A DNA stretch of 64,000 nucleotides, taken from positions 1 through 64,000 of IMG/VR virus record IMGVR_UViG_3300044643_002965, one strand, 5' to 3'. Position 1 is the first letter of the stretch. Every line of letters begins with the position of its first letter. The notes beneath the pieces are model-generated. The model did no database searches and was not told where the DNA came from. It saw only the letters and a program-made list of their open reading frames with translations. This document shows, in pieces, positions 10,036 to 61,800 of this stretch. The position numbers and the translations under genes are program-made. This stretch comes from a virus.

Positions 10036-10596
10036 TCACCCATCTACTAAATAATCATGATCAGAAATACTGACCTGGCCACCTCTCAGTGGCTTTTCTC
10101 TTGTAATCTTTTTACCTAAATTTCTTTGGCAATTCCATACGATTTGTTTGCAGTATGTCGAAAATTTCAAATCAAATTGCAAAGACCTTTCTTTATCAGG
10201 TCGCTCATTGATTTTTAAAAAACTATTACATATTTTTTCAAGAACTAATTCTTGATAGTCGCCAAAAGTCTGCCTATTCGCACCGTGCCTAGTTCTGTTC
10301 TTCCACAAATTTATTAACTCTTCCAAAACTAACTTTGAAACTTTGTCTAATTTTTTATTAAGTAATAAAGTGTCAAAACAAGAATTCAAAAAAATCTGCC
10401 TCTTATAATAGCTTCCAGCTCTCAACACAGCTAACATCAATTCTTGTTGAAAATCATCTAAATCATATTGATGATTATTATTACAATTCTTCCTAGTTAA
10501 TTGCCAAGCCGCATAATAACAAAGTTTACCAAACTTTTTATCTAACTTTGTATACTCTTCCGAAGTAATTGGAAAGTTTTTATATATCGAACTCAT
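10036..10596 (-). CDS. Sigma-70 region 2-like protein
   Basis: The 186-aa product contains DLDDFQQELMLAVLRAGSYY (residues 44-63), much like the 'DL.QE..l.l..A...yd' of sigma region 2.1-2.2, and a second half FDLKFSTYCKQIVWNCQRNL resembling region 2.3-2.4 ('FsTYa...I...I'). Between the two a helical insert of ~80 residues separates the halves, which is unusual. No region 4 is evident. It starts inside the stop of the DNA polymerase gene (ATGA) and ends four bases before the helicase ATG, so it is part of the replication operon; a role in coupling transcription to replication is conceivable, not shown. Confidence 0.5.
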   Translation of the reverse strand: MSSIYKNFPITSEEYTKLDKKFGKLCYYAAWQLTRKNCNNNHQYDLDDFQQELMLAVLRAGSYYKRQIFLNSCFDTLLLNKKLDKVSKLVLEELINLWKNRTRHGANRQTFGDYQELVLEKICNSFLKINERPDKERSLQFDLKFSTYCKQIVWNCQRNLGKKITREKPLRGGQVSISDHDYLVDG

Positions 10597-11912
10597 TTTT
10601 TCCCTTTGTGTTTTTCAGTACTTTGCATATTGTCTAATCTTAGACCTATCTTGGAACTTACTTTTAATTTAAGGGATGGAATCAATTCGTTTTCACTCTC
10701 AAGTATATTTTTTGCAACTTTATAACCATCTTTCAAATTTTCTTTGGAAATAGCCATAAAGTAACCATCATGCACATGAAAAACTAAAGAAAACAAATTT
10801 TTAGCACCCTTGTATAATTTTACCAAATAATATAAACAAATCAATGATGCTGGAGATTGTACAACAAAATTTCTTGCTTTGTAATAAGTAGAATCATCGA
10901 AAATTCTTTTCCTACCAAAATAATCTAAACAAAAACCTTGAGATCTTGCTTCATTTGAACTCTTTTCAACAAAATGAAAAGATGCTGGGAACTGCTCCCT
11001 TAAATTGTTTATAAATTTTTCTGATTGATCTAATGAAATATCGAGAACTTTTGACAGACTGTTTGCTGTCTGTCCATATATAACCGGCAAAAACATTTTT
11101 TTGCCGAATTCCCTTGCATTTTCAAAATTAATATCACCAGTAACTTTGTAAAATATATCCGCATATACATCTTCGCTATTATTTACTATCTTAAGAAGAT
11201 TCTCGTCATTAGCTATTTCTGCCAAAACAGCTACTTCCATATTTTTGTAATCCATCTGCATAAAGTATGTGTATTTTTGAGGCAATGTAAGAGCCGATTT
11301 ATCACCCCCCAACGAGTGTGGGTTGTAAGAGTACTTTTTTTCGTTGTTACACAGCAATCTTCCGTTCTCTTGGCCTTCGACCACATAATTCGGATAAACC
11401 AGCACACACTTAAAATCGTGCCTTAAAATGAAAGATTCCAAAGCAGGAACAACCTGTTGAATTAATTGCATATAAATTAGTTTATATAATTTTATAGCGC
11501 TGGCATCTTTAGTAAAGGTAATAAAGTTTTTAGTCGCCATGCCGATGTTGCCTACTGAACTAGGCAGAGAATTGTAAGATTCATACCAATACAAATCATA
11601 AAAATACTTAAAGAAAATATTTTTACCACATAGCCTGCCAAATAATGTGTAAAGATTTTTAAAGTTATAACCAACAACCATAATATTTTTTTCATTTATA
11701 ACTGTCGTCAACATAGTAGCTACCAACAAAGCATTATCTGGATTTATATTAAATATTTGATTATAACCTTTAACCCCAAATATTTGTAATTTAATATTGC
11801 AATCAACCAAAGTTGTGGAATCTGGATCTGCTGGTGTCCAAACACAAAACAAAAACTTCTCAACTCCACAAGCCTCATAAAGATTGGAAGTCAAATCGCA
11901 AAGGTTTTTCAT
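10593..11912 (-). CDS. Compact family A DNA polymerase
   Basis: The 439-aa protein carries the PolA catalytic motifs: motif A MDYKNMEVAVLAEIAN (catalytic Asp), motif B AREFGKKMFLPVIYGQ (the O helix) and motif C FHVHDGYF (second catalytic Asp). Against the usual forms, motif B has Leu where Phe/Tyr selects the sugar (canonical KxxNFGxxYG, here KKMFLPVIYG), and motif C has HDG instead of HDE. At 439 aa it is much shorter than PolA or T7 polymerase: the N-terminal ~200 residues keep only a faint exonuclease-like segment (VVGYNFKNLYTLFG) without a clear DxE, so proofreading is probably absent. Whether it is the main replicase, or a T4-type gp43 lies elsewhere, cannot be told from this window. Confidence 0.82.
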   Translation of the reverse strand: MKNLCDLTSNLYEACGVEKFLFCVWTPADPDSTTLVDCNIKLQIFGVKGYNQIFNINPDNALLVATMLTTVINEKNIMVVGYNFKNLYTLFGRLCGKNIFFKYFYDLYWYESYNSLPSSVGNIGMATKNFITFTKDASAIKLYKLIYMQLIQQVVPALESFILRHDFKCVLVYPNYVVEGQENGRLLCNNEKKYSYNPHSLGGDKSALTLPQKYTYFMQMDYKNMEVAVLAEIANDENLLKIVNNSEDVYADIFYKVTGDINFENAREFGKKMFLPVIYGQTANSLSKVLDISLDQSEKFINNLREQFPASFHFVEKSSNEARSQGFCLDYFGRKRIFDDSTYYKARNFVVQSPASLICLYYLVKLYKGAKNLFSLVFHVHDGYFMAISKENLKDGYKVAKNILESENELIPSLKLKVSSKIGLRLDNMQSTEKHKGKK

Positions 11913-11949
11913 ACTTGAACTTTAACACTTCTAGAGGAATCAAACAAAC

Positions 11950-12495
11950 AGATTATATGATTACATTAAATGTAATTATCAGTCCGCACTGGGGGGCAGG
12001 CCAAGGGGGGTAAGACAAAAATAAAAGGATTAAGTAAAGATTACTTAAACCTTTTTAAAGTCTAATCCACTTGGTTTCGCCTAAGCTGTAAAAACAACTT
12101 AGATAAAACTAATGTGTCTTTTTGAACAGAATCTTAACCTTTACCCTGTTATGCATAAAACAAACTAACAAGAATCAAGATTCTTAAGTTTTTGTTCTTA
12201 GAAGAGATTTAGTTCTAAAAACTTTTCAGTTCTAAGATACTTTACTCTTCACATAACTGCCTGCCGAAATTAGGCAGGTAAAGGCTCACCTCATCTGCGT
12301 TGTTGAATCGTTAGGATCCCAGATTTCCTAACGGGCCTTGACAGGGGGTACCGTCTCAACATGGTTTTAGTCTCAAGTGTTTAAATAAATTTAACCACTT
12401 AAAACCGTCAAGCTAGTTCAGGCAGACACTTGGCCTTACTCCTTGACTTAATTGAAGTATAACCTCTTGCAAAAGAAGAATTCAAGCGTAGACTA
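11950..12495 (+). ncRNA. Candidate large structured RNA (gene-free, hairpin-rich)
   Basis: No open frame fits this ~590-base gap, but inverted repeats follow each other through its whole length. Seen pairs: 11960-11976, 11980-11991, 12032-12046 inside an outer pair 12027-12031/12064-12068, 12081-12102, 12170-12185 (seven perfect pairs), 12186-12193 with 12217-12224, 12260-12278 (CCTGCC/GGCAGG), 12309-12333 (CGTTAGGA/TCCTAACG) inside 12302-12306/12356-12360, 12363-12406 (two nested stems), and 12407-12412 with 12442-12447. The density and nesting suggest a folded RNA rather than a replication origin, though an origin is the main alternative. Strand is uncertain; plus is given because the next gene (12501) runs that way and the divergent polymerase gene starts at 11912. 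Confidence 0.5.
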
Positions 12496-12500
12496 GAAAA

Positions 12501-13190
12501 ATGCAATACGACCCCCAGATCGCTGTAGAAGGCAACTTCACTCCAGAAGAAACTCTGGCTTATCAACTCACTTGTCATTGGGTTGAATTAAGACACAAGA
12601 TATTTCCAAACTACAGACACCAAAAGATTAGTGGTAGAAAAGGAGATATTAGAAAAACATATTTGTTTAAGAATATTTTAAAGTTTGTAAGAGATAAAAA
12701 TAAAACCTTTAAAGGATTTCAATTTGTTTTATACATGAGAGCACAGCTTGAGATTCTTAAAAAAATACAAAATGATGGCCACCAAGTGGTAGTTGAAGCT
12801 AATTGTCTTCATGGAGAACAATCTGAAAAAAGATGGATGCTATGGAAGAAAAAAGTAGCTGTTGAAAACGCCACAACAAAAATTGAATATCATGTTGTTG
12901 AAAGCAATATTGAAATGGAATTAGATAAAACAAAAAAAACAATTTTATCAATACTAGGAAGTGATGTAACAAAAGAAAAATATATAAACTCAAGTCTTGA
13001 TATTTTAAAATTTGTTATATTGAAAAAAATAAGTCCTTTGTATATTTTGGTTTCAAAGTGGATAAAAATAATAAAACCAGAACTTCTTCAAGATATAAAA
13101 GATCTATCAAATACTAAAAAATATGATGACTATAACTTAGAAAAAGTACAAACTGTTTATAATAAAATGTTTGATTTTGAGTCTGCTTAG
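12501..13190 (+). CDS. Hypothetical protein, 229 aa
   Basis: Unrecognised, mainly helical and Lys-rich; no membrane segment. The N-terminus (YDPQIAVEGNFTPEETLAYQ) is less basic than the rest, and a middle part contains Trp/Lys-rich helices (EKRWMLWKKKVA). No clear ribosome binding site precedes the ATG at 12501. It follows directly on the hairpin-rich region, so that region might be its 5' leader. Its stop interlocks with the stop of the convergent gene at 13187 (TTAG). Confidence 0.6.
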   Translation: MQYDPQIAVEGNFTPEETLAYQLTCHWVELRHKIFPNYRHQKISGRKGDIRKTYLFKNILKFVRDKNKTFKGFQFVLYMRAQLEILKKIQNDGHQVVVEANCLHGEQSEKRWMLWKKKVAVENATTKIEYHVVESNIEMELDKTKKTILSILGSDVTKEKYINSSLDILKFVILKKISPLYILVSKWIKIIKPELLQDIKDLSNTKKYDDYNLEKVQTVYNKMFDFESA

Positions 13191-21086: not shown

Positions 21087-22073
21087 ATGTCTTCTAAAAG
21101 AAATATATTTGAAAAAAGAGTAGCTTTCAAACCTTTTGAATACCCAGAAGTTACAGAATACAAAAACGCAATATCTCATAGCTATTGGCTTGTTAGCGAA
21201 TGGAACTTTATAGGTGATATTCAAGATTTCAATGTAAAATTAAACGATGTAGAAAAAAGCATTCTCAAGAATGCAATGCTTGCAATTTCCCAAATTGAAA
21301 TAAGCGTTAAGAAATTCTGGACTAAACTTGGCGAAAGGTTTCCAAAAGCTGAATTCGATCAAGTTGGTGTAACATTTGGTGAATCAGAAGTAAGGCATTC
21401 AGATGCATATTCTCATCTCCTAGAAGTTCTAGGAATGAATAATGAATTTGATCAACTATTACAAAATCCTGTTATTCAAGGTAGAGTTGATTACTTGACA
21501 AAATATTTGAAAGGCGCTTCTGATAATAGCGATGAAAATTATACTTTAACTTTAACTTTGTTTAGCATATTCATAGAAAATGTTAGTCTATTCTCTCAGT
21601 TTTTAGTTATAAAATCTTTTAACAAGTATATGAATTGTTTAAAAGATATTGATAATGTTGTTCAAGCGACTCAAAAAGAAGAGCAGATACATGCTCTTCT
21701 TGGTGTTTATTTAATAAAGACTATTCAAAAAGAATTTCCCGATTGGTTCAATGAAGACTTTTATAACAAACTGTATAGAGCTTGCAAAAAGGCATATGAA
21801 GCCGAAGCGAAAATTATTGATTGGATTTTCGAAGCTGGAGAACTTTCTTTCTTGTCAAAAGAAAATGTAAAAGAATATATCAAGCAAAGGTTTAATGAAA
21901 GCCTTGAAATGGTAGGAGGCAAAAAGGTTTTTGATGTTGATCCAGATAAGGTATCTGAGTTAAAATGGTTTGAAGATGAAATACATGCCGAAGTGAACAC
22001 AGACTTCTTCCATAAGAAGCCTGTGACATATTCCAAAAATGTAAAGCCAACAACAGCAGAGGACTTATTCTAA
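21087..22073 (+). CDS. nrdB: Ribonucleotide reductase beta subunit (NrdB)
   Basis: The 328-aa protein carries the di-iron/tyrosyl radical centre. Ligand motifs seen: SEWNFIGDIQDF near residue 35, GESEVRHSDAYSHLLE near 100-115 (E and H ligands), and EEQIHALLG near 200 (E..H). The C-terminal tail ends in an acidic/hydrophobic stretch (TTAEDLF) as expected for docking to NrdA. The start at 21087 follows CGGAGGAATA; the frame is open further back but without a site and across the promoter. The TAA overlaps the nrdA ATG by one base. Confidence 0.92.
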   Translation: MSSKRNIFEKRVAFKPFEYPEVTEYKNAISHSYWLVSEWNFIGDIQDFNVKLNDVEKSILKNAMLAISQIEISVKKFWTKLGERFPKAEFDQVGVTFGESEVRHSDAYSHLLEVLGMNNEFDQLLQNPVIQGRVDYLTKYLKGASDNSDENYTLTLTLFSIFIENVSLFSQFLVIKSFNKYMNCLKDIDNVVQATQKEEQIHALLGVYLIKTIQKEFPDWFNEDFYNKLYRACKKAYEAEAKIIDWIFEAGELSFLSKENVKEYIKQRFNESLEMVGGKKVFDVDPDKVSELKWFEDEIHAEVNTDFFHKKPVTYSKNVKPTTAEDLF

Positions 22074-24664
22074 TGAACAGCAACTACAGATGGCTTACTG
22101 AAATGTCTCAAGTGTTCCTTGAGAGAGACTATTTGGTCGATGGTCAAACTGTCGATCAAAGAGTTGATGAGATTTGTAATACTGCCGAAAAGCTGCTTAA
22201 CAAACCGGGATTTGCTGCCAAGTTTAAAGAAAACTTTCAAAAGGGTTGGTACAGCCTATCAACTCCTATTTGGACAAACTTTGGCAATGAAAGAGGATTG
22301 CCCATTAGTTGCTTTGGCAGCACTATAGGTGATTCTATGGAATCTATTGCATATACTTGGGCAGAAGTAGCAATGATGACCAAATATGGTGGAGGAACCT
22401 CTGCTACATTTGGAAACTTAAGACCTAGAGGAGCATCTATCAGAAACAACGGAGAAAGCTCTGGTGCTGTTCACTTTATGCAAGCGTTTGAAAACCTAAT
22501 TCAAATTGTTAGCCAAGGCAGTTGTTATATAGAAGGAACTGAAGTATTAACAAATAATGGATTTAAAGATTTTAGAGAAGTTTTGCCAACTGATAAATTG
22601 GCGCAGCTTGACGAATTTAATAATGTTTCATTTACTGAAAAATATGAAATGGTTGTAAATGATTTTGAAGGAAATTTAATTTGTCTTTCTGGCAAAAAGA
22701 CTGAAAATTCTGTTTCCATCAAGGTGACTCCTAACCATCGCATGGTTATTTGCCGCAGAAAAATGCAAGACAGGGAGCGTTATTGGCCATCCAATACTGA
22801 AATTGTAGAAGCACAGGATTTAAATCTCCATAGAGACAATAGAATTCCATTAGCTGGTTGGGCTGGCAAAGGAGATGGTCTAAGCAATTTTGATAGACTT
22901 AGGATTGCATATCAAGCGGATGGAAGAAAAGATGACGCAAATAGAAAAATTCGTTTTCATTTTGCTAAAGAAAGAAAGGTTCAACGCTTAGAAAAAATCC
23001 TAAACGATATTGGAATTAAATACGAAAAGAAAACCAATCCAGATAAAACAATTAGTATTAATTTTGAATATGAAGAATCTGTCAAAAAGAAAACATTTTC
23101 TGAATGGGTAAGAATTGAAGAAATAAATGGAATTTGGGCTCAAGAATTTATTGAGGAACTATCTTGTTGGGATGGAAGTGTATCTCATGGAGGATGCATT
23201 ACATATTCAAGCATAGATAAAACAAATATAGATATTGTTCAAGCAATTGCTGCATTGGCTGATTTAAAAACCAGAGTTAGAATTCGCCCTGCCTACGGCA
23301 ACAGGCGTGATTTGCATTGTATAAATATAAGCGAAAACTCCTACAGAGGGGGCGAGTCAATTAATAAAACTGAAGAATATTACAAAGGAAAAGTTTATTG
23401 TGCTATAGTACCAGAGGGTAGGCTTTTAGTTAGATATCAAGACAGAGTGATGGTGTGTGGAAACACTCGTCGTGGTAACTTCGCTGCTTATCTTCCTATT
23501 GACCATGCCGACATTATGGAATTCCTTCAGATAAGAACTGAAGGATTCCCAATTCAAGATCTTTCATTCGGAGTCTGTGTTCCAGACTATTGGATGGAAG
23601 AAATGATTAATGGAGATGCAGACAAAAGAAAGGTGTGGGCTAAAGTTCTCGAAATGAGAGCCAACTTTGGCTATCCATATATTTCATTTATTGACAATGC
23701 AAATAATAATACAGCAGATTGCTATAAAGATAAAGAATTAAAAATTACACATAGCAATCTATGTCAGGAAATTTTTTTGCCAGACAATGAATACGAATCA
23801 TTTGTCTGTGATTTAAGTAGTATGAATATTCTTTATTATGATGAATGGAAAGACACAGATGCCGTAGAGCTTCTTGTCTATCTTCTTGATGCTGTGATGA
23901 CAGAATTCATTGAAAAAGCCAAGAAGATTAAGTTTATGGAAAGGGCTGTTAAATTTGCCGAAAGGCATCGTGCTCTTGGTGTTGGCTGGCTTGGCTGGCA
24001 TAGCTACTTACAAAGCAAGATGATTCCTTGGGAGAGTATGGAAGCCAAGTTCCATAATACTCAAATTGCAAAAAACATCAAGGAAGCTGCATATAAAGCC
24101 AGTGCAAAGCTAGCAGAAGAATATGGTGAGCCAGAAGTATGCAAAGGATATGGCAGAAGAAACACTACTCTTCTTGCTATAGCCCCTACAAAATCTTCGG
24201 CGTTTATTTTAGGACAGGTTTCCGAAGGTATTGAACCTCATAGAACCAACTATTACATTAAGGATCTGCAAAAGGGTAAATTTACAATCAAGAATGCAGA
24301 GCTTGAGAAGCTTTTGAAAGCGAAGGGACATGATACTGAAGAAGTATGGAAGAGCATTCTTATGAATGGCGGAAGCGTCCAGCATTTGGAATGTCTTACC
24401 GAAGAAGAGAAGAATGTATTCAAAACTTTTGCCGAAATTAGTCCTAAAGAGATTATGATTCAGGCAGCACAAAGACAGAAGTATATTGATCAAGGTCAAA
24501 GTCTTAACCTTATGATTCATCCTTCTGTTCCTACTAAAGATGTTAATGCTTTGATTATTGAAGGCTGGAAAATGGGCATCAAGGGTCTTTATTACCAGAT
24601 ATCCGTTAATGCCGCCCAGGCTTTTTCAAGATCAATTCTGACTTGTACAAGTTGCGAGAGCTAA
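22073..24664 (+). CDS. nrdA: Ribonucleotide reductase alpha subunit (NrdA) with intein
   Basis: The 863-aa precursor is a 549-aa reductase interrupted by an intein (residues 151-464). The reductase part has the catalytic Cys in GLPISCFGS (residue 80), the radical-site motif SNLCQEI with a nearby DLSSMN, APTKSSAFILGQVSEGIEP in the substrate/phosphate-binding barrel, and the C-terminal redox pair TCTSCES. It lacks an N-terminal ATP-cone, so the usual dATP shut-off is probably missing. The intein sits at a conserved loop, before TRRGNFA. After splicing NrdA would pair with NrdB from the preceding gene. Confidence 0.93.
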   Translation: MNSNYRWLTEMSQVFLERDYLVDGQTVDQRVDEICNTAEKLLNKPGFAAKFKENFQKGWYSLSTPIWTNFGNERGLPISCFGSTIGDSMESIAYTWAEVAMMTKYGGGTSATFGNLRPRGASIRNNGESSGAVHFMQAFENLIQIVSQGSCYIEGTEVLTNNGFKDFREVLPTDKLAQLDEFNNVSFTEKYEMVVNDFEGNLICLSGKKTENSVSIKVTPNHRMVICRRKMQDRERYWPSNTEIVEAQDLNLHRDNRIPLAGWAGKGDGLSNFDRLRIAYQADGRKDDANRKIRFHFAKERKVQRLEKILNDIGIKYEKKTNPDKTISINFEYEESVKKKTFSEWVRIEEINGIWAQEFIEELSCWDGSVSHGGCITYSSIDKTNIDIVQAIAALADLKTRVRIRPAYGNRRDLHCINISENSYRGGESINKTEEYYKGKVYCAIVPEGRLLVRYQDRVMVCGNTRRGNFAAYLPIDHADIMEFLQIRTEGFPIQDLSFGVCVPDYWMEEMINGDADKRKVWAKVLEMRANFGYPYISFIDNANNNTADCYKDKELKITHSNLCQEIFLPDNEYESFVCDLSSMNILYYDEWKDTDAVELLVYLLDAVMTEFIEKAKKIKFMERAVKFAERHRALGVGWLGWHSYLQSKMIPWESMEAKFHNTQIAKNIKEAAYKASAKLAEEYGEPEVCKGYGRRNTTLLAIAPTKSSAFILGQVSEGIEPHRTNYYIKDLQKGKFTIKNAELEKLLKAKGHDTEEVWKSILMNGGSVQHLECLTEEEKNVFKTFAEISPKEIMIQAAQRQKYIDQGQSLNLMIHPSVPTKDVNALIIEGWKMGIKGLYYQISVNAAQAFSRSILTCTSCES
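22523..23464 (+). mobile_element. Intein in NrdA, LAGLIDADG type
   Basis: A 314-aa intein from Cys151 to Asn464. Block A is CYIEGTEVLTNNGF, block B SIKVTPNHRMVI (the T..H), and the C-terminal blocks are VYCAIVPEGRLLVRYQ and VMVCGN followed by Thr. The residue before the terminal Asn is Gly instead of the common His, a known but less efficient variant. The middle holds two motifs like those of LAGLIDADG endonucleases, LRIAYQADGR and FIEELSCWDGS, both with their Asp, so homing activity may be intact. Confidence 0.88.
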
Positions 24665-47978: not shown

Positions 47979-49736
47979 ATGTTAATTAGTGAAAGACTTT
48001 CAATTCCTTTTGAGAAAATTCCCATTTCCCACAAAGTCTGGTGGAAATGTGATTATTGTGGAAAAGAATTTGAAAGAGAAATAAAAGTAATTAATCGTGC
48101 CTGCAAAAACAGCCCAACACATAGTTGTGGTTCTAAAGAATGTAAAGCAAAGAAAAAAGAAGATGGTTGCATGTCAAAATATGGTGTTAGCCATGTTTCA
48201 CAAATACCAGATGTCATTGCTAAAAAAATAGTAAAAATAAAAGAAAAGATGCCACAAACTTTGGAAAAAATGAAAAAAACAAATCTGGAAAGATATGGAA
48301 GCGAATTTGCATCTCAAGCAGATTCTGTTCAACAAAAAATGAAAGAAACATGTATTGAAAAATATGGAACAGAATGCTCATTGCAAAATGAAGAAGTCAA
48401 AGAAAAAACTAAAAAAACCAATTTAGAGAAACATGGCGTTGAATTTGCCATGCAATCAGAATTAGTACAAGAAAAAAGGAAACAAACAAATCTGGAAAGA
48501 TTTGGTTGTGAACATGCTTCTCAATCAGAAGAAGTTAAGCAAAAAATAATTGAATCAAATTTAGAAAATCATGGTGTTCCATATTCTGGTATGAGAGAAG
48601 ATGTGAAACAAAAAATTGTACAAACAAATATTGAAAAATATGGCGTTACTAATCCGTTGCAAAATGAAGAAATTAATAATAAAAGAAAACAAACAAATTT
48701 AGAAAGATATGGGTACGAGTGTCCATTTGCAAATCAAAATGTTATTGAAAAAATAGAAAAAACAAATATTGAAAGATATGGATATCCTAGAGCAAGCCAA
48801 AACCAACAAACAATTAGCAAAATGATTAAAACTAATATTCAAAAGTATGGCGTTCCAGCAGCTTGCATGCTTGAAGAAAATAAAAATTATGGCAAAACTC
48901 AAGCCGAAATAGAAAATTGGGTTAATTCATTTGGATTTAATTTTCATGTTGATCATGAAATTCTCAATGGAAAAGAACTTGATTTATATGATGAAAATAA
49001 AAAAATTGCTTTTGAATACTGCGGTTTATATTGGCATAATGAAATATCCCCAGAACCAAGATTAAGAAGATATCATCATGATAAATATAAAATTTGCAAA
49101 AATAAAGGGATTAGACTTATTACAATTTTTGAAGATGAGTGGATAAACAGAAACACACAATGCAGAAATTTTATTAAGTCAATTTTGAATAAAAATGACT
49201 TAAAGATATTTGCTAGAAATTGCGAAATTAAAGAAATTACTAAAGTTGATTTTAAATATTTTTGTGATGAATATCACATACAAGGATCTAATAATTTGTC
49301 CATAATTTCTTATGGTTTATTTTATGATAATAAACTTATAGGAGGAATGTCTTTTGGAAATCATCACAGAAATGTAGATGAGTTAATTTTAGATCGTTTA
49401 TGTTTTAAAGATAATATTTCAATAATAGGAGGATCATCTAGACTTTTCAAACGATGTTGTATATGGGCAAAATCTCAAGGCTTTGCTCAAGTAAGCTCAT
49501 GGAGTGATAATAGATGGAGCAGCGGTGGCGTGTATGAAAAACTCGGGTTTAGATTATTAAGAGAAAGCGGACCAGATTATTCCTATGTAGATTTAAATAA
49601 AAAAAATATTAGACTAAGTAAGCAATCGCAAAAAAAACAAGAACCTGATGCCAATACAGAAAGAGAAATCTGTTTGGAAAAAGGATTTGCAAGAATATGG
49701 GATTGTGGCAAAAAGAAATGGATATTTAATTTGTAA
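47979..49736 (+). CDS. Free-standing homing endonuclease with DUF723-like repeats
   Basis: 585 aa. Residues ~14-60 hold a zinc finger (CDYCGKEF ... CGSKEC). Then follow ten copies of a ~28-residue 'KYGVxxxxQ....V..K....TNLE' unit (DUF723-like helical repeats, DNA contact), then a nuclease core of the Vsr/EDxHD type: GKELDLYDENKKIAFEYCGLYWHNE and IRLITIFEDEW. The C-terminus contains a second domain with WSDNRWSSGGVYEKLGF (as in acyltransferase-like accessory parts of such enzymes). It is inserted in the virion gene region with GTGAGG before its ATG. Confidence 0.82.
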   Translation: MLISERLSIPFEKIPISHKVWWKCDYCGKEFEREIKVINRACKNSPTHSCGSKECKAKKKEDGCMSKYGVSHVSQIPDVIAKKIVKIKEKMPQTLEKMKKTNLERYGSEFASQADSVQQKMKETCIEKYGTECSLQNEEVKEKTKKTNLEKHGVEFAMQSELVQEKRKQTNLERFGCEHASQSEEVKQKIIESNLENHGVPYSGMREDVKQKIVQTNIEKYGVTNPLQNEEINNKRKQTNLERYGYECPFANQNVIEKIEKTNIERYGYPRASQNQQTISKMIKTNIQKYGVPAACMLEENKNYGKTQAEIENWVNSFGFNFHVDHEILNGKELDLYDENKKIAFEYCGLYWHNEISPEPRLRRYHHDKYKICKNKGIRLITIFEDEWINRNTQCRNFIKSILNKNDLKIFARNCEIKEITKVDFKYFCDEYHIQGSNNLSIISYGLFYDNKLIGGMSFGNHHRNVDELILDRLCFKDNISIIGGSSRLFKRCCIWAKSQGFAQVSSWSDNRWSSGGVYEKLGFRLLRESGPDYSYVDLNKKNIRLSKQSQKKQEPDANTEREICLEKGFARIWDCGKKKWIFNL

Positions 49737-53805: not shown

Positions 53806-56800
53806 TTAATCGTCTATCCAAAGTTCATAAGAAGCTGCGCTAGCACCTGATGGTAACATTATCCAAATTTTAAATGTTCCATTGTTAGACAATGGATCAT
53901 CAATTGTCCAAGGCATAGTTGCAATTTCTACTCCGCTAGACCAAGTATTTGTACCATAATAGTCATTTTGATCTGTACAACTGTCGTTGCCGATCCATCC
54001 TAGATTTATTGTATCTGTTGTATTTATGTATATTTTTTTAACAGACCAAACAGCTTTGGATACATTAATATTATACCAGTATTGATTTGTATCATCTATA
54101 GATATTAAATATTTATTTGCTATACCAATTGAATTCATATCTGTCGCTGTCAAGCAACCTGCTCCACCACTTATTGGTGTTGCCCCACCAGCCGGTGTAG
54201 TTGTTGTTGTAGTTGTTGGAACGGGTGTTGTTGTAGTGGTTGTTCCTGCAACAGAGTTATTGCTGTAAGAGATACCATCTGCAGGGCTTGCAAGCTGTGC
54301 GTGAGTCATATCGCTTGTGTTACCTGTGTCTACAACTATGCAGCTAGGAGCAGGTGTAGTTGTCGTGGTTGTTGTAGTTGTTGTGGTAGTTGGAACTGGT
54401 GTGGTTGTAGTAGTTGTAGGTGCGGGTGTTGTTGTTGTGGTAGTTGGAACTGGTGTGGTTGTAGTTGTTGTAGGTGCGGGTGTGGTAGTTGTTGTGGTTG
54501 TAGGTGCGGGTGTGGTAGTTGTTGTGGTTGTAGGTGCGGGTGTGGTAGTTGTTGTGGTTGTAGGTGCGGGTGTGGTAGTTGTTGTGGTTGTAGGTGCGGG
54601 TGTGGTAGTTGTTGTGGTTGGAACAGGTGTGGTTGTGGTAGTAGTTGTTGTGGGTGTAGGCGTGGTTGTAGTAGTAGTTGTGGTAGTAGTTGTGGTAGTA
54701 GGTGCGGGTGTGGTAGTTGTTGTTGCTGCTGCTTGTACTGTTACTGTGTAAGCTTGGCTGCCTGTAGCTCCAACGGTATCGGTAGCTGTAATTGTGAAAG
54801 AAACGGCTCCTGTAGTTGTAGGAGTTCCACTTATAACACCAGATGCTCCTGCTAGGCTTAATCCTGCTGGCAAAGATCCAACAGTAACAGAGAATGTCTT
54901 AGCCCCAGTTCCTCCTGTTGCAGCAACAGTTTCGTTATAGGCAGTTCCAACAACGGGATTTGGAAGTGTTGCTGTTGTAATTGAAACTGCTGAATTTATA
55001 ACAACTGTGTAAGCTTGGTTTGCTGTTGCTCCAACGGTATCGGTAGCTGTTATTGTGAAGTTGTATGTTGCAGCACTTGTTGGTGTGCCACTTATAACGC
55101 CAGAAGCTCCTGTTAGGCTTAATCCTGTTGGTAGAGAACCAGAAGTTACGGAGAATGTCTTGGCTCCAGTTCCTCCTGTTGCAGAAACAGTTTGAGAATA
55201 AGCCGTGTTTATTGTTGTGTCTGGCAAAGTAGCTGTTGTAATTGAAACAGCACTATTAATAGTGACTGAGTAAGCTTGGCTTCCTGTTGCTCCAACGGTA
55301 TCGGTAGCTGTGATTGTGAAGTTTGATGTTCCTGTAGCAGTTGGAGTTCCGCTTATAACACCAGAAGCTCCTGTTAGGCTTAATCCTGTTGGTAGAGAAC
55401 CAGATGTTACAGAGTATGTCTTGGCTCCAGTACCATTGGAGGCTGTTACTGTCTGTGAGTAGGCAACATTTATTGTTGTGTCTGGTAGTGTTGCTGGCGA
55501 TACAGAAATAGCTGGGTTTATTGTGACTGAGTAAGCTTGGCTTGCTGTTGCCAAAGAAGCATCTGTAGCTGTAATTGTAAAGTTTGATGTCGCAGCACTT
55601 GTTGGAGTTCCGCTTATTACACCAGTATTGGCATCTAGGCTTAAGCCAGTTGGCAATGAACCAGCAGAAACAGAATAAGTAATAGGAGCTGTTCCACCTG
55701 ATGCTGTTATTGTCTGACTGTAAGCAGTATTTATTGTTGTGTCTGGTAATGTTGCAGGAGATATTGAAAGAGCTCCGCTTACAACAACGCTATAGGCTTG
55801 GCTTCCTGTTGCTCCTACTGTATCGGTAGCTGTGACTGTGAAGTTGTATGTTGCTGCAGCAGTAGAAGTTCCGCTTATAACACCAGAGGCGCCTGTTAAG
55901 GTTAATCCTGTTGGTAAGCTTCCAGAAGTTACTGAGAATGTCTTTGCTCCTGTACCACCTGTTGCAGCAACGGTTTGGTTGTAAGCAACATTTATTGTTG
56001 TATCTGGTAGAGTTGCAGTTGTAATTGAAACTGCTGGGTTTATAACAACGGTATAAGCTTGACTTCCTGTTGCTCCTACTGTATCTGTAGCTGTAATTGT
56101 GAAATTAGATGTTCCTGTAGCCGTTGGTGTTCCACTTATAACACCAGATGCACCGTTTAAGCTTAATCCTGTTGGTAGAGAACCAGAAGTTACTGAGAAT
56201 GTCTTAGCTCCTGTTCCATTAGAAGCGGATACTGTTTGACTGTATGCAACATTTATTGTTGTATCTGGTAGAGTTGCTGGAGATACTGTAACTGCAGCAT
56301 TAATTGTTACTGTATATGCTTGGCTTGCTGTCGCACCATTTGCGTCTGTTACAGTAATTGTGAAACTCGAAGCGCCTGTTGCAGTTGGAGTTCCAGTTAT
56401 TGCCCCCGTTGTGGCATTTATACTTAATCCTGCTGGCAAAGAACCAGCAGATACTGAATAAGCAAGAGGAGCAGTTCCACCTGTTCCTGTTATTGTTTGG
56501 CTGTAAGCAACATTTATTGTTGTATCTGGTAGAGTTGCAGGAGATATTGAAAGTGGAACATTTACTAATACTGTGTATGGCTGACTTACAGTTGCGCCTA
56601 CAGTATCTGTGGCTGTAATTGTAAAGTTGTAAGTAGCAGCAGCAGTTGCAGTTCCTGTTATTGCACCGCTTGAAGCATTTAGGCTTAGTCCTGTTGGTAA
56701 GCTTCCAGAGGTTACAGTATATGTCTTTGCTCCTGTGCCATTAGATGCTGTAACAGTTTGGTTATAAGCAACTCCTTGTGTTGTTGTTGGCAAAGAAGCT

Positions 56801-58410
56801 GGAGCCATAGTCATGGCTGCATTTATTGTTGTTGTGTAAGTTATTGTTCCTGTTGCCCCCACAGTATCTGTTGCTGTTATATCAAAAGTATAGCTTCCAG
56901 CAGCAGTAGGTGTGCCACTTATAACACCTGTTGCGGCGTTTAAGCTTAGTCCTGTTGGCAAAGAACCAGAAGATAATGTATATGTCTTTGTTCCAGTTCC
57001 GTTAGATGCTGTGACAGTTTGGCTATAAGCTACATTTTCTGTTGTTGCTGGTAGAGTTGCTGGAGCTAATGTTATGGCAGGATTAATATTTACATTATAA
57101 ATAGTATTTCCCGTTGCTCCTACTGTGTCGGTTGCTGTTATGGCAAAATTGTAAAGACCTGCAGTAATTGGAGTTCCGCTTACTAGTCCGGTAGCGGTAT
57201 TTAAGCTTAGTCCTGTTGGTAAAGATCCAAATGTTACTGCATATGTCTTTGTGCCTGTGCCGCCAGTCGCAGTTACTGTTTGTGAATATGGTATTGTTAT
57301 TGTTGTGTCTGGTAAAGTTGAGGGAGTAACCGCTACTGGTGGATTTATAACAACAGAGTAGGCTTTGTTTCCTGTTGCTCCTACTGTATCAGTTCCTGTT
57401 ATTGTGAAATTATAAGTTCCGGCTACAGTAACAGTTCCGCTTATTACTCCTGTTGCAGCATTTAGGCTTAGTCCTGTTGGCAAAGAACCAGAAGAAACGG
57501 AGAATGTTACAGCTCCTGTTCCTCCTGTTGAAGAAACAGTTTGGCTATATACTTCCCCTTCCGTTGTGTCTGGCAGTGTTGCTGTAGATATTAATACAGG
57601 ATTATTTATTGTTACTGTATATGCTTTGCTACCTATATCACTGTTTCCATCGGTTGCTTCTATAGTGAAATTATAAGTTCCTGGAGTTGTAGGAGTTCCA
57701 GTAATGGCTCCAGTTGCTGAATTTAGACTCAATCCAGTTGGCAATGATCCTGAAATAATACTGTATGCATATGGAGCAAGTCCGCCAGATGCTGTAACTG
57801 TTTGATTATAAGCAATAGATTGAGTTGTTGCTGGCAATGATGCGGGTGCAAATGCGATTAGAGGTTTTACTTTTATTCTATAAGTTTTTATTGCGCTGTT
57901 AATTCCATCACTTACTAAAATAGAAAATTCGTAAGACCCTGAAGCAGTCGGTGTTCCACTTATAACTCCAGTTGAAGAAATGGTTACACCAGGAGGAAAA
58001 ACTCCAGAATCAAGAGAATATGTATAAGGAGATTTGCCACCAGTAGCTGACATTGCTACCGATAAAGAGGTGCCAACCTGCTGAATATTTATGCTTGCTG
58101 GATCTGTTTGTATTAAGCATTTGCATGTGCAATCAGTTGTTGGTATGCCATAGTAACCTATTTCAAGTTTTCTTAGGTTTTCTTGTACGTCTGTTATATA
58201 AATTTTTTGAACTTCTAAAGCTTCTTTTCCATAAAGTGTAAAGCAATCTTCATGTCTTAATTCATATGGAACATATAAAATCCAAAATGTAGTTTGTTTT
58301 AATAGATTTATGACATTGTCATAATTTTGATCTACAGGAGGATATTTTAAAATTTCCTGCATATTTACATTGTTTACAACGAATGTTATTTGTGGATAAT
58401 CTTGTGCCAT
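53806..58410 (-). CDS. Giant Ig-repeat adhesin, 1534 aa
   Basis: ATG at 58410 (MAQDYPQITFVV), five bases after a GATAAATA late octamer; a TTG at 58428 is upstream of the likely transcript start and rejected. Residues ~1-95 form a domain shared with the 58478 gene (YPQITF...FTLYGxEAL...YYGxP). Then come thirteen ~90-residue putative-Ig (He_PIG) repeats, each with 'SLPTGLSL..ATGVISGTP......F.I.ATD..GA....Y.V' and 'LPDTTINVAYSQTV'. Next is a Thr/Pro-rich linker of ~130 residues and a C-terminal domain ending YELWIDD. Long rods like this usually reach from virion to cell surface. Confidence 0.82.
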   Translation of the reverse strand: MAQDYPQITFVVNNVNMQEILKYPPVDQNYDNVINLLKQTTFWILYVPYELRHEDCFTLYGKEALEVQKIYITDVQENLRKLEIGYYGIPTTDCTCKCLIQTDPASINIQQVGTSLSVAMSATGGKSPYTYSLDSGVFPPGVTISSTGVISGTPTASGSYEFSILVSDGINSAIKTYRIKVKPLIAFAPASLPATTQSIAYNQTVTASGGLAPYAYSIISGSLPTGLSLNSATGAITGTPTTPGTYNFTIEATDGNSDIGSKAYTVTINNPVLISTATLPDTTEGEVYSQTVSSTGGTGAVTFSVSSGSLPTGLSLNAATGVISGTVTVAGTYNFTITGTDTVGATGNKAYSVVINPPVAVTPSTLPDTTITIPYSQTVTATGGTGTKTYAVTFGSLPTGLSLNTATGLVSGTPITAGLYNFAITATDTVGATGNTIYNVNINPAITLAPATLPATTENVAYSQTVTASNGTGTKTYTLSSGSLPTGLSLNAATGVISGTPTAAGSYTFDITATDTVGATGTITYTTTINAAMTMAPASLPTTTQGVAYNQTVTASNGTGAKTYTVTSGSLPTGLSLNASSGAITGTATAAATYNFTITATDTVGATVSQPYTVLVNVPLSISPATLPDTTINVAYSQTITGTGGTAPLAYSVSAGSLPAGLSINATTGAITGTPTATGASSFTITVTDANGATASQAYTVTINAAVTVSPATLPDTTINVAYSQTVSASNGTGAKTFSVTSGSLPTGLSLNGASGVISGTPTATGTSNFTITATDTVGATGSQAYTVVINPAVSITTATLPDTTINVAYNQTVAATGGTGAKTFSVTSGSLPTGLTLTGASGVISGTSTAAATYNFTVTATDTVGATGSQAYSVVVSGALSISPATLPDTTINTAYSQTITASGGTAPITYSVSAGSLPTGLSLDANTGVISGTPTSAATSNFTITATDASLATASQAYSVTINPAISVSPATLPDTTINVAYSQTVTASNGTGAKTYSVTSGSLPTGLSLTGASGVISGTPTATGTSNFTITATDTVGATGSQAYSVTINSAVSITTATLPDTTINTAYSQTVSATGGTGAKTFSVTSGSLPTGLSLTGASGVISGTPTSAATYNFTITATDTVGATANQAYTVVINSAVSITTATLPNPVVGTAYNETVAATGGTGAKTFSVTVGSLPAGLSLAGASGVISGTPTTTGAVSFTITATDTVGATGSQAYTVTVQAAATTTTTPAPTTTTTTTTTTTTTPTPTTTTTTTTPVPTTTTTTPAPTTTTTTTPAPTTTTTTTPAPTTTTTTTPAPTTTTTTTPAPTTTTTTPVPTTTTTTPAPTTTTTTPVPTTTTTTTTTTTTPAPSCIVVDTGNTSDMTHAQLASPADGISYSNNSVAGTTTTTTPVPTTTTTTTPAGGATPISGGAGCLTATDMNSIGIANKYLISIDDTNQYWYNINVSKAVWSVKKIYINTTDTINLGWIGNDSCTDQNDYYGTNTWSSGVEIATMPWTIDDPLSNNGTFKIWIMLPSGASAASYELWIDD
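54340..54730 (-). repeat. Tandem repeat coding Thr-Pro linker
   Basis: Short degenerate tandem units, mainly variants of GTTGTWG and GTGCGGGTGTG on the plus strand, including five near-identical ~60-base blocks (around 54470-54620) that encode T-T-T-T-T-T-P-A-P units. Such sequence slips in replication, so copy number probably varies between isolates. Poly-Val and Cys-rich frames on the opposite strand are artefacts of this composition. Confidence 0.8.
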
Positions 58411-58423
58411 AATTTTATTTATC
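58403..58423 (-). promoter_or_regulatory. Late-type promoter of the Ig-repeat adhesin
   Basis: On the minus strand GATAAATA is followed by AAATT and the ATG at 58410. As at 14015 and 17494, the message would begin about at the start codon. Confidence 0.55.
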
Positions 58424-58477
58424 GACAAGAAGTAAAATTTTTAACAAGATTGAGTTAATTAATAGCTGATTAGAACT

Positions 58478-58812: not shown

Positions 58813-58861
58813 GATCCTTGAGCCAAGAAAACAACGGACTTCAGTTTTAGTTTAATATCAA
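58813..58861 (+). repeat. Decayed hairpin repeat, copy D
   Basis: GATCCTTGAGCCAAGAAAA ... GGACTTCAG ... ATATCAA follows copies B and C at both ends and in the middle, but the C-run and G-run that form the hairpin stem are lost (ACAACG, TTTTAG). TCAA again contains the stop of a convergent minus gene (58858). Confidence 0.6.
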
Positions 58862-61800
58862 TTAAACAATCCAAAGTTTGTATCTCTATTGGAGTAAATA
58901 TCTGACCAGCCGGTATAGTTTACCTGCACAGGACTATATGTAGATGCGTAGAATGGAACTATCTTGCCATTTCCAGCCAGTCCATACCTATTATATCCCC
59001 ATGTCCATGCTGTTCCATCTGATTTCAAAGCAATTGAACTATCATTAAAACCAAGTACTTTGGTCCATCCTGTTGATGAAAATAGTTGAATTGGAGAACT
59101 ATAACCTTGATATTGATAGAAACCACCATTGAAAGCTATAGCATTTATTATAGATTGTCCGTTGCCCCATCCCCATAATGTTCCATCAGATTTTACAGCC
59201 ATATATACACTATATCCATCTGATGAAACATATGTATAAGACCCGCTTATTTGTGTTGGAGAACTTCTGTTTATTGTATCATTTAATCCAAGTCGTCCAT
59301 AGGCATTGTATCCCCAAGACCATAATGTTCCATCTGTTTTTATTCCAAACATAGCATTGCCACCAACAATCATCTTCCAAGAACCAGTTATTGTTTGTGT
59401 CGGTATTAATTTAGATGAATTAGTTGCTGTATTGTCACCAAATAATCCATAAGATATATCGGATCCCCATAAATATGCAGTATCATCATTTTTAATTGCA
59501 GCAGAAACATATGAATTTCTAAACACATATTTCCAGTCTGTGTCTGTTCCAATTTGTGTTGGGCTAGAGTTATTACTGTTTCCTGGTAATTGTCCCCACG
59601 CCCACAATGTTCCATTAGACTTAACAGCATTAACTGAATAACCAGATATTGAAAAATCTGTCCATGTTCCACCTGTACTTATTTGTACAGGAGAAGACCT
59701 GTGAACAATAGAACCAGAATCCCAAATATATCCCCATGTCCAAAGAGTGCCATCTGTTTTTATTCCGCCCATGCCTACATAAGCGGAATAAAGATAGCTG
59801 CCACTTGGTAATTTTGACCATGATGAATTTGTAATTTCTTGTGTTGGGAAAGATTGTGAATTTGTTGTGTTATTCCCAATTTGACCATAAGAATTAACTC
59901 CCATTCCTAATAAACTTCCTGGTTGTGGAGTCGTTGTAGTAGTGCTAGTCGTAGGCGAAGGTGTAGTAGCTACATATCCAGCACTTCTAGTTGCATAAAC
60001 TCCATAACTATTACCAGATATATCAATCCATAAATTATCATTTGCTAATGTTTGTATTGGAGATGAAAGTGCGTATCCTGCATATGGGTTTCCAGTTTGG
60101 TTATAATAATTTGAACCCCATGCCCATAATGTGCCATCCGTTTTTGTTGCTGCGGATGAATAGTCTAGAGCAGTAGACTTTTTCCAATTTGTGTCTGTTC
60201 CTACTTGGATAGGAGAGCTAACCCCTGAATAAGGAGTATCTGTATTTAAACCTAAAATTCCATAGGCATTATAACCCCATGCCCATAATGTGCCATTGGT
60301 TTTTACAGCAAGTACATGATATTTGGTTGAGCTTACATAAGCCCAACCAGATGCTCCTATTTGTATAGGACTTGAATAACTTACATAACTAGTATTGTTT
60401 CCAATTTGCCCCCAAGAATTATTCCCCCAAGCCCATAAATTTGTATCAGATTTTATGGCATGAACAACCCCATCGCCACTAACATTAACAAAAATCCAAT
60501 TATTTCCTCCAGCAACTGTTTGTGTTGGAGAACTTTGCGTATTATATGATACCTGATTATTGCCAAGTTGTCCATTCTGATTGCCTCCCCAAAGCCACAA
60601 AGTACCATCTGTTTTTATTCCTGCCCCGGTTTGTCCTCCAGTATTAACATATCTCCATGTATCTGTTCCAATTTGTATGGGAGAGCTATAGCTAGTATTA
60701 GAATTGTTGGGCAGGAATGCTCCGCCTCCCCATCCCCACAATGTATTATCAGATTTTATAGCAAGAGTTGCAAGCGAACTTGAAGATACCATATTCCATG
60801 TATTTGAGGTGATTTGAATAGGTGAAGATCTATTTTCTAATGTTCCATCTCCAAGTGCTCCATAATAAGAGTTCAATCCCCAAGCCCATAATGTTCCATC
60901 TGGTTTTATGGCAAAACATGATCCGTATCCACTCGTGTTAGGTGGCAAATCTTGGTATTGACTTGCATCAATTATTTGTGTTGGAGACTGATATATTACA
61001 GTGTTATTATTATCCCCTGAAGATCCAAGATGTCTATAGCCCCATGTATATAGCGCACCAGGAGCCTGTGTTGTTGATGTAGTGGATGTTGTAGATGTAC
61101 TTGTAGTAGATGTAGTTGTAGTAGATGTGGTTGTAGCTCTAATTCCACCAAATCCAACAACATTTATCCAGTTTGTATCTGCAAGAGTTGTTTGCACTGG
61201 AGAGCTTCTATGTATCTTTGTGTTATCTCCTATGGTGCCATATGAGTTATGTCCCCAAGCCCATAAGCTTCCATCTGTTTTTAGTCCTATAACAGAACGG
61301 TTGTAGGTTACTTTGCTCCATGTACCAGTAATTTGAACAGGAGAGCTTATATCTGCTGTGTTATTTTGAGCTAATTGCCCACTGTTGTTTCCGCCCCAAC
61401 CCCAAAGAGAACCATCATTTTTAATTGCAAAAGCAGAGCTAGTTATTCCCGATGCTGTTTTTGGGACAAAAGCCCAATCTGTTCCTGTTCCAACTTGAAC
61501 AGGCGAGCTTCTGTTTATGATATTTCCTTGTCCTAACTGACCATTGTTATTATTTCCCCATATCCATAATGTATTGTCTTGTTTGATTGCAATTCCACCA
61601 GCATAAAGTGATCCAACCATTTTCCATGTTGTATCTGTTCCTACTTGAACTGGGGAAAACATGCCTCCATATCCTTGTCCGCCAACAAATCCAAGTCCAA
61701 GAGTTCCGCCTCCATTTGCGCCCCAAGCCCATAGTGTTCCATCAGTTTTTATTGCAAATACTTGACCATATCCACCAGCAACTTTGCTCCATGTGCTTCC

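Follow-up and report, generated by a model that had tools for sequence, protein, structure and literature searches.

An apparently new class of large structured RNA encoded just upstream of the family-A DNA polymerase gene in large phages

In this report we describe comparative analysis of a phage intergenic region which almost certainly encodes a structured RNA on its minus strand. The RNA, estimated at about 460 nt here and at roughly 365-570 nt across lineages, would represent a new class of large structured RNA located just upstream of a gene of family-A DNA polymerase (pol). Its predicted fold, in which a long-range helix (P6) ties a core junction (helix P1 with hairpins hpA and hpB) to a C(C/U)CGGU motif near the 3' end, is well supported. 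Judging from sequence signals only, synthesis of the RNA would start from its own promoter of the sigma70 type. We infer that the RNA may act in cis within the replication module, as a leader or regulator of pol on read-through transcripts or else as an origin-linked transcript. Taken as a whole, this explanation (new RNA class, own promoter, action in cis in the replication module) is the one we favour, with some reservation.

Locus and predicted transcript

The window, meaning the whole stretch of 64,000 nucleotides that was analysed, covers bases 1-64000 of a 132,223-bp IMG/VR virus record. Between the divergent pol and g12501 genes it contains a gap of 588 nt (11913-12500) with no open reading frame of at least 60 aa, in agreement with the roughly 590 gene-free bases described in an earlier, sequence-only reading of this DNA. 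Folding of the gap is stronger than that of its dinucleotide shuffles (z -4.8 on the plus and z -5.6 on the minus strand, 0 of 100 shuffles being as good), and excess folding of the syntenic gap was seen in almost all relatives (mean z of -5.1 on one strand and -5.0 on the other, for the window and 25 relatives). The features of the locus are, by position:

10593-11912, minus strand: gene of family-A DNA polymerase (pol, polA-like; Pfam DNA_pol_A, E=2.5e-30), on the same strand as the RNA and downstream of it
11975-12004, minus strand: candidate second promoter, TTGGCC-18-GATAAT, in the part from the RNA 3' end to pol, weak when taken alone
11986-12449, minus strand: structured RNA, estimated extent of about 460 nt, based on promoter position, core, P6 and the range of lengths
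11988-11996, minus strand: conserved 3' motif CCCCCCAGU, C(C/U)CGGU in relatives
11995-12001, minus strand: 3' strand of P6, GCCUGCC
12002-12258, minus strand: variable, hairpin-rich domain enclosed by P6
12259-12265, minus strand: 5' strand of P6, GGCAGGC, pairing with 11995-12001, with sequence turnover across lineages
12283-12290, minus strand: GGUGAGCC, following P1'
12283-12367, minus strand: core, consisting of AAACC, P1, hpA, hpB and then GGUGAGCC, supported by covariation and CM R1
12356-12361 paired with 12301-12306, minus strand: P1
12309-12333, minus strand: hpB
12340-12355, minus strand: hpA
12363-12406, minus strand: variable hairpin between the 5' hairpin and the core, conserved neither in sequence nor in length
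12421-12435, minus strand: 5' hairpin GGC-CAAGUGUCU-GCC, with a conserved loop and a stem that covaries in group A
12456-12485, minus strand: putative RNA promoter, with -35 TTGAAT (12480-12485), an 18-nt spacer and -10 TATACT (12456-12461)
12501-13190, plus strand: g12501, divergent neighbour with no known function, conserved both in relatives that have the RNA and in those that do not

All four hairpins named in the earlier reading exist. The one at 12302-12360 is the core helix P1 enclosing two hairpins, hpA and hpB, the one at 12407-12447 is the 5' hairpin region of the RNA, 12363-12406 is the variable hairpin listed above, and 12027-12068 falls inside the variable domain. The loop of the 5' hairpin, GUGUC (12425-12429), may pair with GACAC (12114-12118), a candidate pairing that becomes UUGUC/GACAA in one relative. 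A helix closing both ends of the RNA was suggested by the window MFE fold and was rejected as unsupported in relatives.

The start of the RNA was placed 7 nt after the -10 box (about 12449), and its uncertain 3' end was set at the conserved 3' motif; estimated lengths are 366-569 nt (24 lineages). The strongest sigma70-like site of the RNA strand precedes the core by 63-158 nt in 31 of the 33 lineages (p=7e-8 versus shuffles), and we regard a promoter of its own as probable, with no expression data at hand. A search of 33 lineages for an intrinsic terminator between the RNA and pol gave none (chance alone would give 0.7), so that the 3' end of the RNA is undefined and transcripts may run on into pol. 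Promoter-like sites between the RNA and pol are enriched as a set over lineages (p=3e-5). In L097, L165, L060, L011 and L067 the best of them stops only 6-9 nt short of the start codon of pol, a spacing that would suit a leaderless mRNA.

Several other features of the window were noted. Between pol and the helicase genes lies g10036 (10036-10596, minus strand), a very conserved protein of 186 aa for which only a marginal match to sigma-70 region 2 was obtained, in relatives (E 0.046); it could be a divergent sigma factor. Neither the AlphaFold model of g10036 nor that of g12501 had a PDB fold match. The plus strand carries a gene for ribonucleotide reductase that is split by an intein-like insert matching LAGLIDADG weakly (22073-24664), a complete-looking CTP synthase gene, here in a phage (25019-26665), and a protein in which DUF7487 is combined with a Mom-like domain for DNA modification (47979-49736). 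Strong local skew of G over C and of T over A was seen at 54000-55000 and 62000-63500, inside giant minus-strand ORFs (53806-58428 and 58858-63819), and these stretches are perhaps repetitive fibre-like domains.

Covariation among relatives and the strand of the RNA

No loci were obtained when only the pol and g12501 proteins served as queries; the DnaB-like helicase and the g10036 family (186 aa) yielded over 150 loci from related phages, and the 595-kb record LR756511 is also syntenic. The divergent g12501/pol arrangement is widespread among relatives, and phage contigs carrying the RNA reach 459 kb. Over conserved blocks the window can be aligned with five close relatives (group A: L003, L005, L007, L023 and L026). 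Across subgroups plain MAFFT alignment did not work, the group B gaps having different content, and it was abandoned. Model R1, built from four group A sequences, finds a single copy on the whole record (E=1.3e-26, the window sequence being included in the model) and matches beyond group A, at the syntenic place, in L165 (E 0.003) and L011 (E 0.013). Model R2, built from an alignment of 11 lineages (A11), independently matches L099 (8.6e-15), L049 (7e-8), L063 (3.5e-4) and L071 (7e-4), upstream of pol and on its strand. The two models agree on the matching stretch in L165, and all of their matches with E<0.1 sit upstream of pol. By model matches and motif order, the RNA can be recognised in 33 of the 78 non-redundant relatives.

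Distant relatives share, on the minus strand, the motif order AAACC, P1, hpA, hpB and P1', often followed by GGUNNGCC; hpB has an ACGRG-type loop in many lineages, and a further hairpin stands beside hpA in some. The sequence of P1 turns over completely between lineages, from UGUUGA/UCAACA in the window to GUCGG/CCGAC (L005), UACUGG/CCAGUA (L026), AGGAG/CUCCU (L093), UUGGCA/UGCCAA (L138), GAGCA/UGCUC (L103) and UGUGAG/CUCACA (L054), and at two P1 positions all four Watson-Crick pairs are present. The 20 core pairs of A11 are 96.8% paired over its 11 lineages, double-change cells number 34 compared with 8.9 in shuffles (0/500), and the covariation score is 0.495 compared with 0.148; with pairing partners slid, pairing falls to 33-53%. 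For the sake of register the hpB-P1' junction of A11 was padded with N in six rows, its rows are not all independent, and covariation was judged by shuffles, without R-scape. Model-fitted alignments agree on the core covariation, but they lean to the model.

Helix P6 spans about 260 nt, pairing a segment that lies about 95-115 nt past the start of the core with one directly ahead of the C(C/U)CGGU motif, which in most lineages lies 74-170 nt before pol. Its turnover is likewise complete: GGCAGGC/GCCUGCC of the window is replaced in other lineages by GGCUGGUU/AACCAGCC, GAUGCUGACU/GGUCAGCAUC, GCCGACUU/AAGUCGGC, AGCAGACU/AGUCUGCU, ACUCUUGG/CCAAGAGU and AUGCUAUGGU/ACCAUAGCAU, and the comparison with shuffles gave a combined p of about 1e-21 over 28 lineages (p-values floored at 0.0025). 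The automatic search returned no convincing P6 helix in a few lineages (L138, L049, L065), and the 3' motif was unrecognised in 5 of 33. The strong covariation of the core and P6 among homologues supports the structured RNA that had been proposed from the window alone.

That proposal gave no strand, and the comparative evidence points to the minus strand. A plus-strand RNA, as in the first consensus fold, was dropped, since the helix exceptions of group A, which would be A-C on the plus strand, become G-U when the minus strand is read. Read on the minus strand, P1 and hpA of group A comprise 49 Watson-Crick, 3 G-U and no A-C pairs, and nine cells of A11 are G-U and none A-C. Because the wobbles are G-U there and never A-C, we assign the RNA to the minus strand, with pol downstream of it in the same direction.

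Linkage to the polymerase gene

All viral contigs were scanned with a DNA pattern of one subtype, blind to neighbouring genes, and 36 contigs matched; bacterial and archaeal genome contigs gave no match to it. In every contig that could be tested, i.e. with room downstream (35/35, some near-duplicates), pol was found 411-550 bp downstream on the same strand. A group A pattern matched only the known group A loci. L054, L061, L098 and others carry an inserted ORF of about 295 aa, and since these ORFs occupy the g12501 side, the RNA stays with pol. Being on the same strand and directly upstream of pol, it meets the positional criterion for a cis-regulatory leader. It is also possible that the linkage reflects nothing more than a conserved gene block.

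In group B and other relatives pol and its neighbours are kept with no detectable RNA, thus pol does not need the RNA everywhere. Nor was the RNA found with R2 on whole group B records and LR756511; its absence there is not proved, because the R2 search relies on a loose pre-filter and failed to recover the known copy in L063. Group B (L008, L010, L014, L015, L017, L018, L019) keeps the gap, and at the place of the RNA two convergent sigma54-like promoters (TTGGCAC-N5-TTGC) flank long hairpins with TTCG-type loops, which is striking for phage.

Possible roles and comparison with known RNAs

A role in cis is inferred because the RNA tracks the polymerase gene; with function inferred only and no expression data, the case for action in cis in replication is evenly balanced. 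An obligatory leader is disfavoured by the putative second promoter between the RNA and pol, and our search showed no terminator-type attenuator. The main rival to a cis role is an ornate RNA that stands alone and acts in trans in the manner of GOLLD or ROOL, perhaps as an oligomer or RNP, and merely rides in the replication gene block. Such an RNA, which we consider possible though rather doubtful, would fit the size of 366-569 nt, the putative own promoter, the second promoter for pol and the elaborate, tertiary-looking design with conserved loops, and conserved gene order alone would explain the linkage to pol. It is less easily reconciled with the strictness of this linkage in all 35 testable contigs, held even with an ORF inserted on the other side, and there is no terminator to define a free RNA.

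A sub-case of the cis role is an origin preprimer similar to ColE1 RNA II, where the transcript hybridises to the template near its 3' end and primes the leading strand. The position beside pol and near the helicase gene, the promoter, the long structured transcript, the AT-rich stretch after the 3' motif and the large hairpins with convergent promoters at the same place in group B could all be read in this way, yet we find it unlikely: GC skew follows gene direction and marks no origin here, the 3' block of the RNA is C-rich and not G-rich as in ColE1 RNA II, and the RNA is undetected in many relatives. Far less probable still is that no functional RNA exists and that the gap is an origin or regulatory region of DNA hairpins and protein-binding palindromes. 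The region is indeed intergenic, hairpin-rich and located between divergent genes, and its two strands fold about equally well. DNA hairpins alone fail, however, on the strand-specific wobbles (on one strand G-U pairs occur and A-C pairs do not), on the conserved single-stranded loops and on the directional promoter at a fixed place on the RNA strand, and P6 spans too great a distance (about 260 nt) to suit them. As for the replication origin that the sequence-only reading had offered as an alternative, one that uses this RNA as a transcript is not excluded. The reading we prefer, a new RNA class with its own promoter acting in cis in the replication module, can be carried further only tentatively: the RNA might be a working part of the phage replication machinery (origin transcript, RNA partner or regulator of the family-A polymerase), with fast-evolving sequence and held architecture, specific to this large-phage family.

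Comparison of the window with 4227 Rfam families gave no match at the gathering score or at E up to 10, six relatives from five subgroups gave none at E up to 1, and the GOLLD, ROOL and OLE covariance models matched neither the window nor the six relatives. As no Rfam family fits either the window or these relatives, the RNA class appears to be new, and the "possible new" RNA of the earlier reading, which had asked for a search with GOLLD, ROOL and group I intron models, is supported; the novelty concerns the RNA class, and functional novelty is not claimed. The criteria for a group I or group II intron are not fulfilled, there being no Rfam match and the gap lying between two divergent complete genes. 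For ColE1-type origin RNA there was no match to a known Rfam family. We found no earlier description of such an RNA in the literature, with the reservation that coverage was incomplete and most subscription papers were outside it. To our knowledge, few RNAs this large and complex exist outside ribosomes, introns and RNase P.

Among autoregulatory leaders, T4 gp43 is known to bind its own mRNA. Like riboswitches or leaders of this kind, the present RNA lies upstream of and co-directional with a polymerase gene, with no terminator found between; it is much larger, is followed by a putative second promoter and shows no terminator-type expression platform. The packaging RNA of phi29, a structured phage RNA with its own promoter outside protein genes, serves packaging and is much shorter, and the present RNA has no Rfam match. 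ColE1 RNA II, a long and structured transcript with a part in replication by a family-A DNA polymerase, possibly shares a way of working with this RNA; sequence and structure differ, and there is no evidence of priming here. ROOL is similar in size to the RNA described here, and we know of no strict linkage of ROOL to a polymerase gene. Both are large structured RNAs, and strict polymerase-gene linkage is seen in the present one. GOLLD is also large, ornate and outside protein genes; its linker sometimes holds tRNAs, whereas this window has no tRNA, and it is the present RNA that is linked to pol. GOLLD and ROOL are large structured phage RNAs, ROOL coming from phages and bacteria, which form RNA-only homo-oligomeric nanocages and whose functions are poorly understood (PMC12286853). 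The RNA described here offers a strong clue in its constant place beside and in line with pol wherever the neighbour-blind scan detected it, and should it prove to have a role in replication, viral DNA synthesis would involve an RNA of a new kind.
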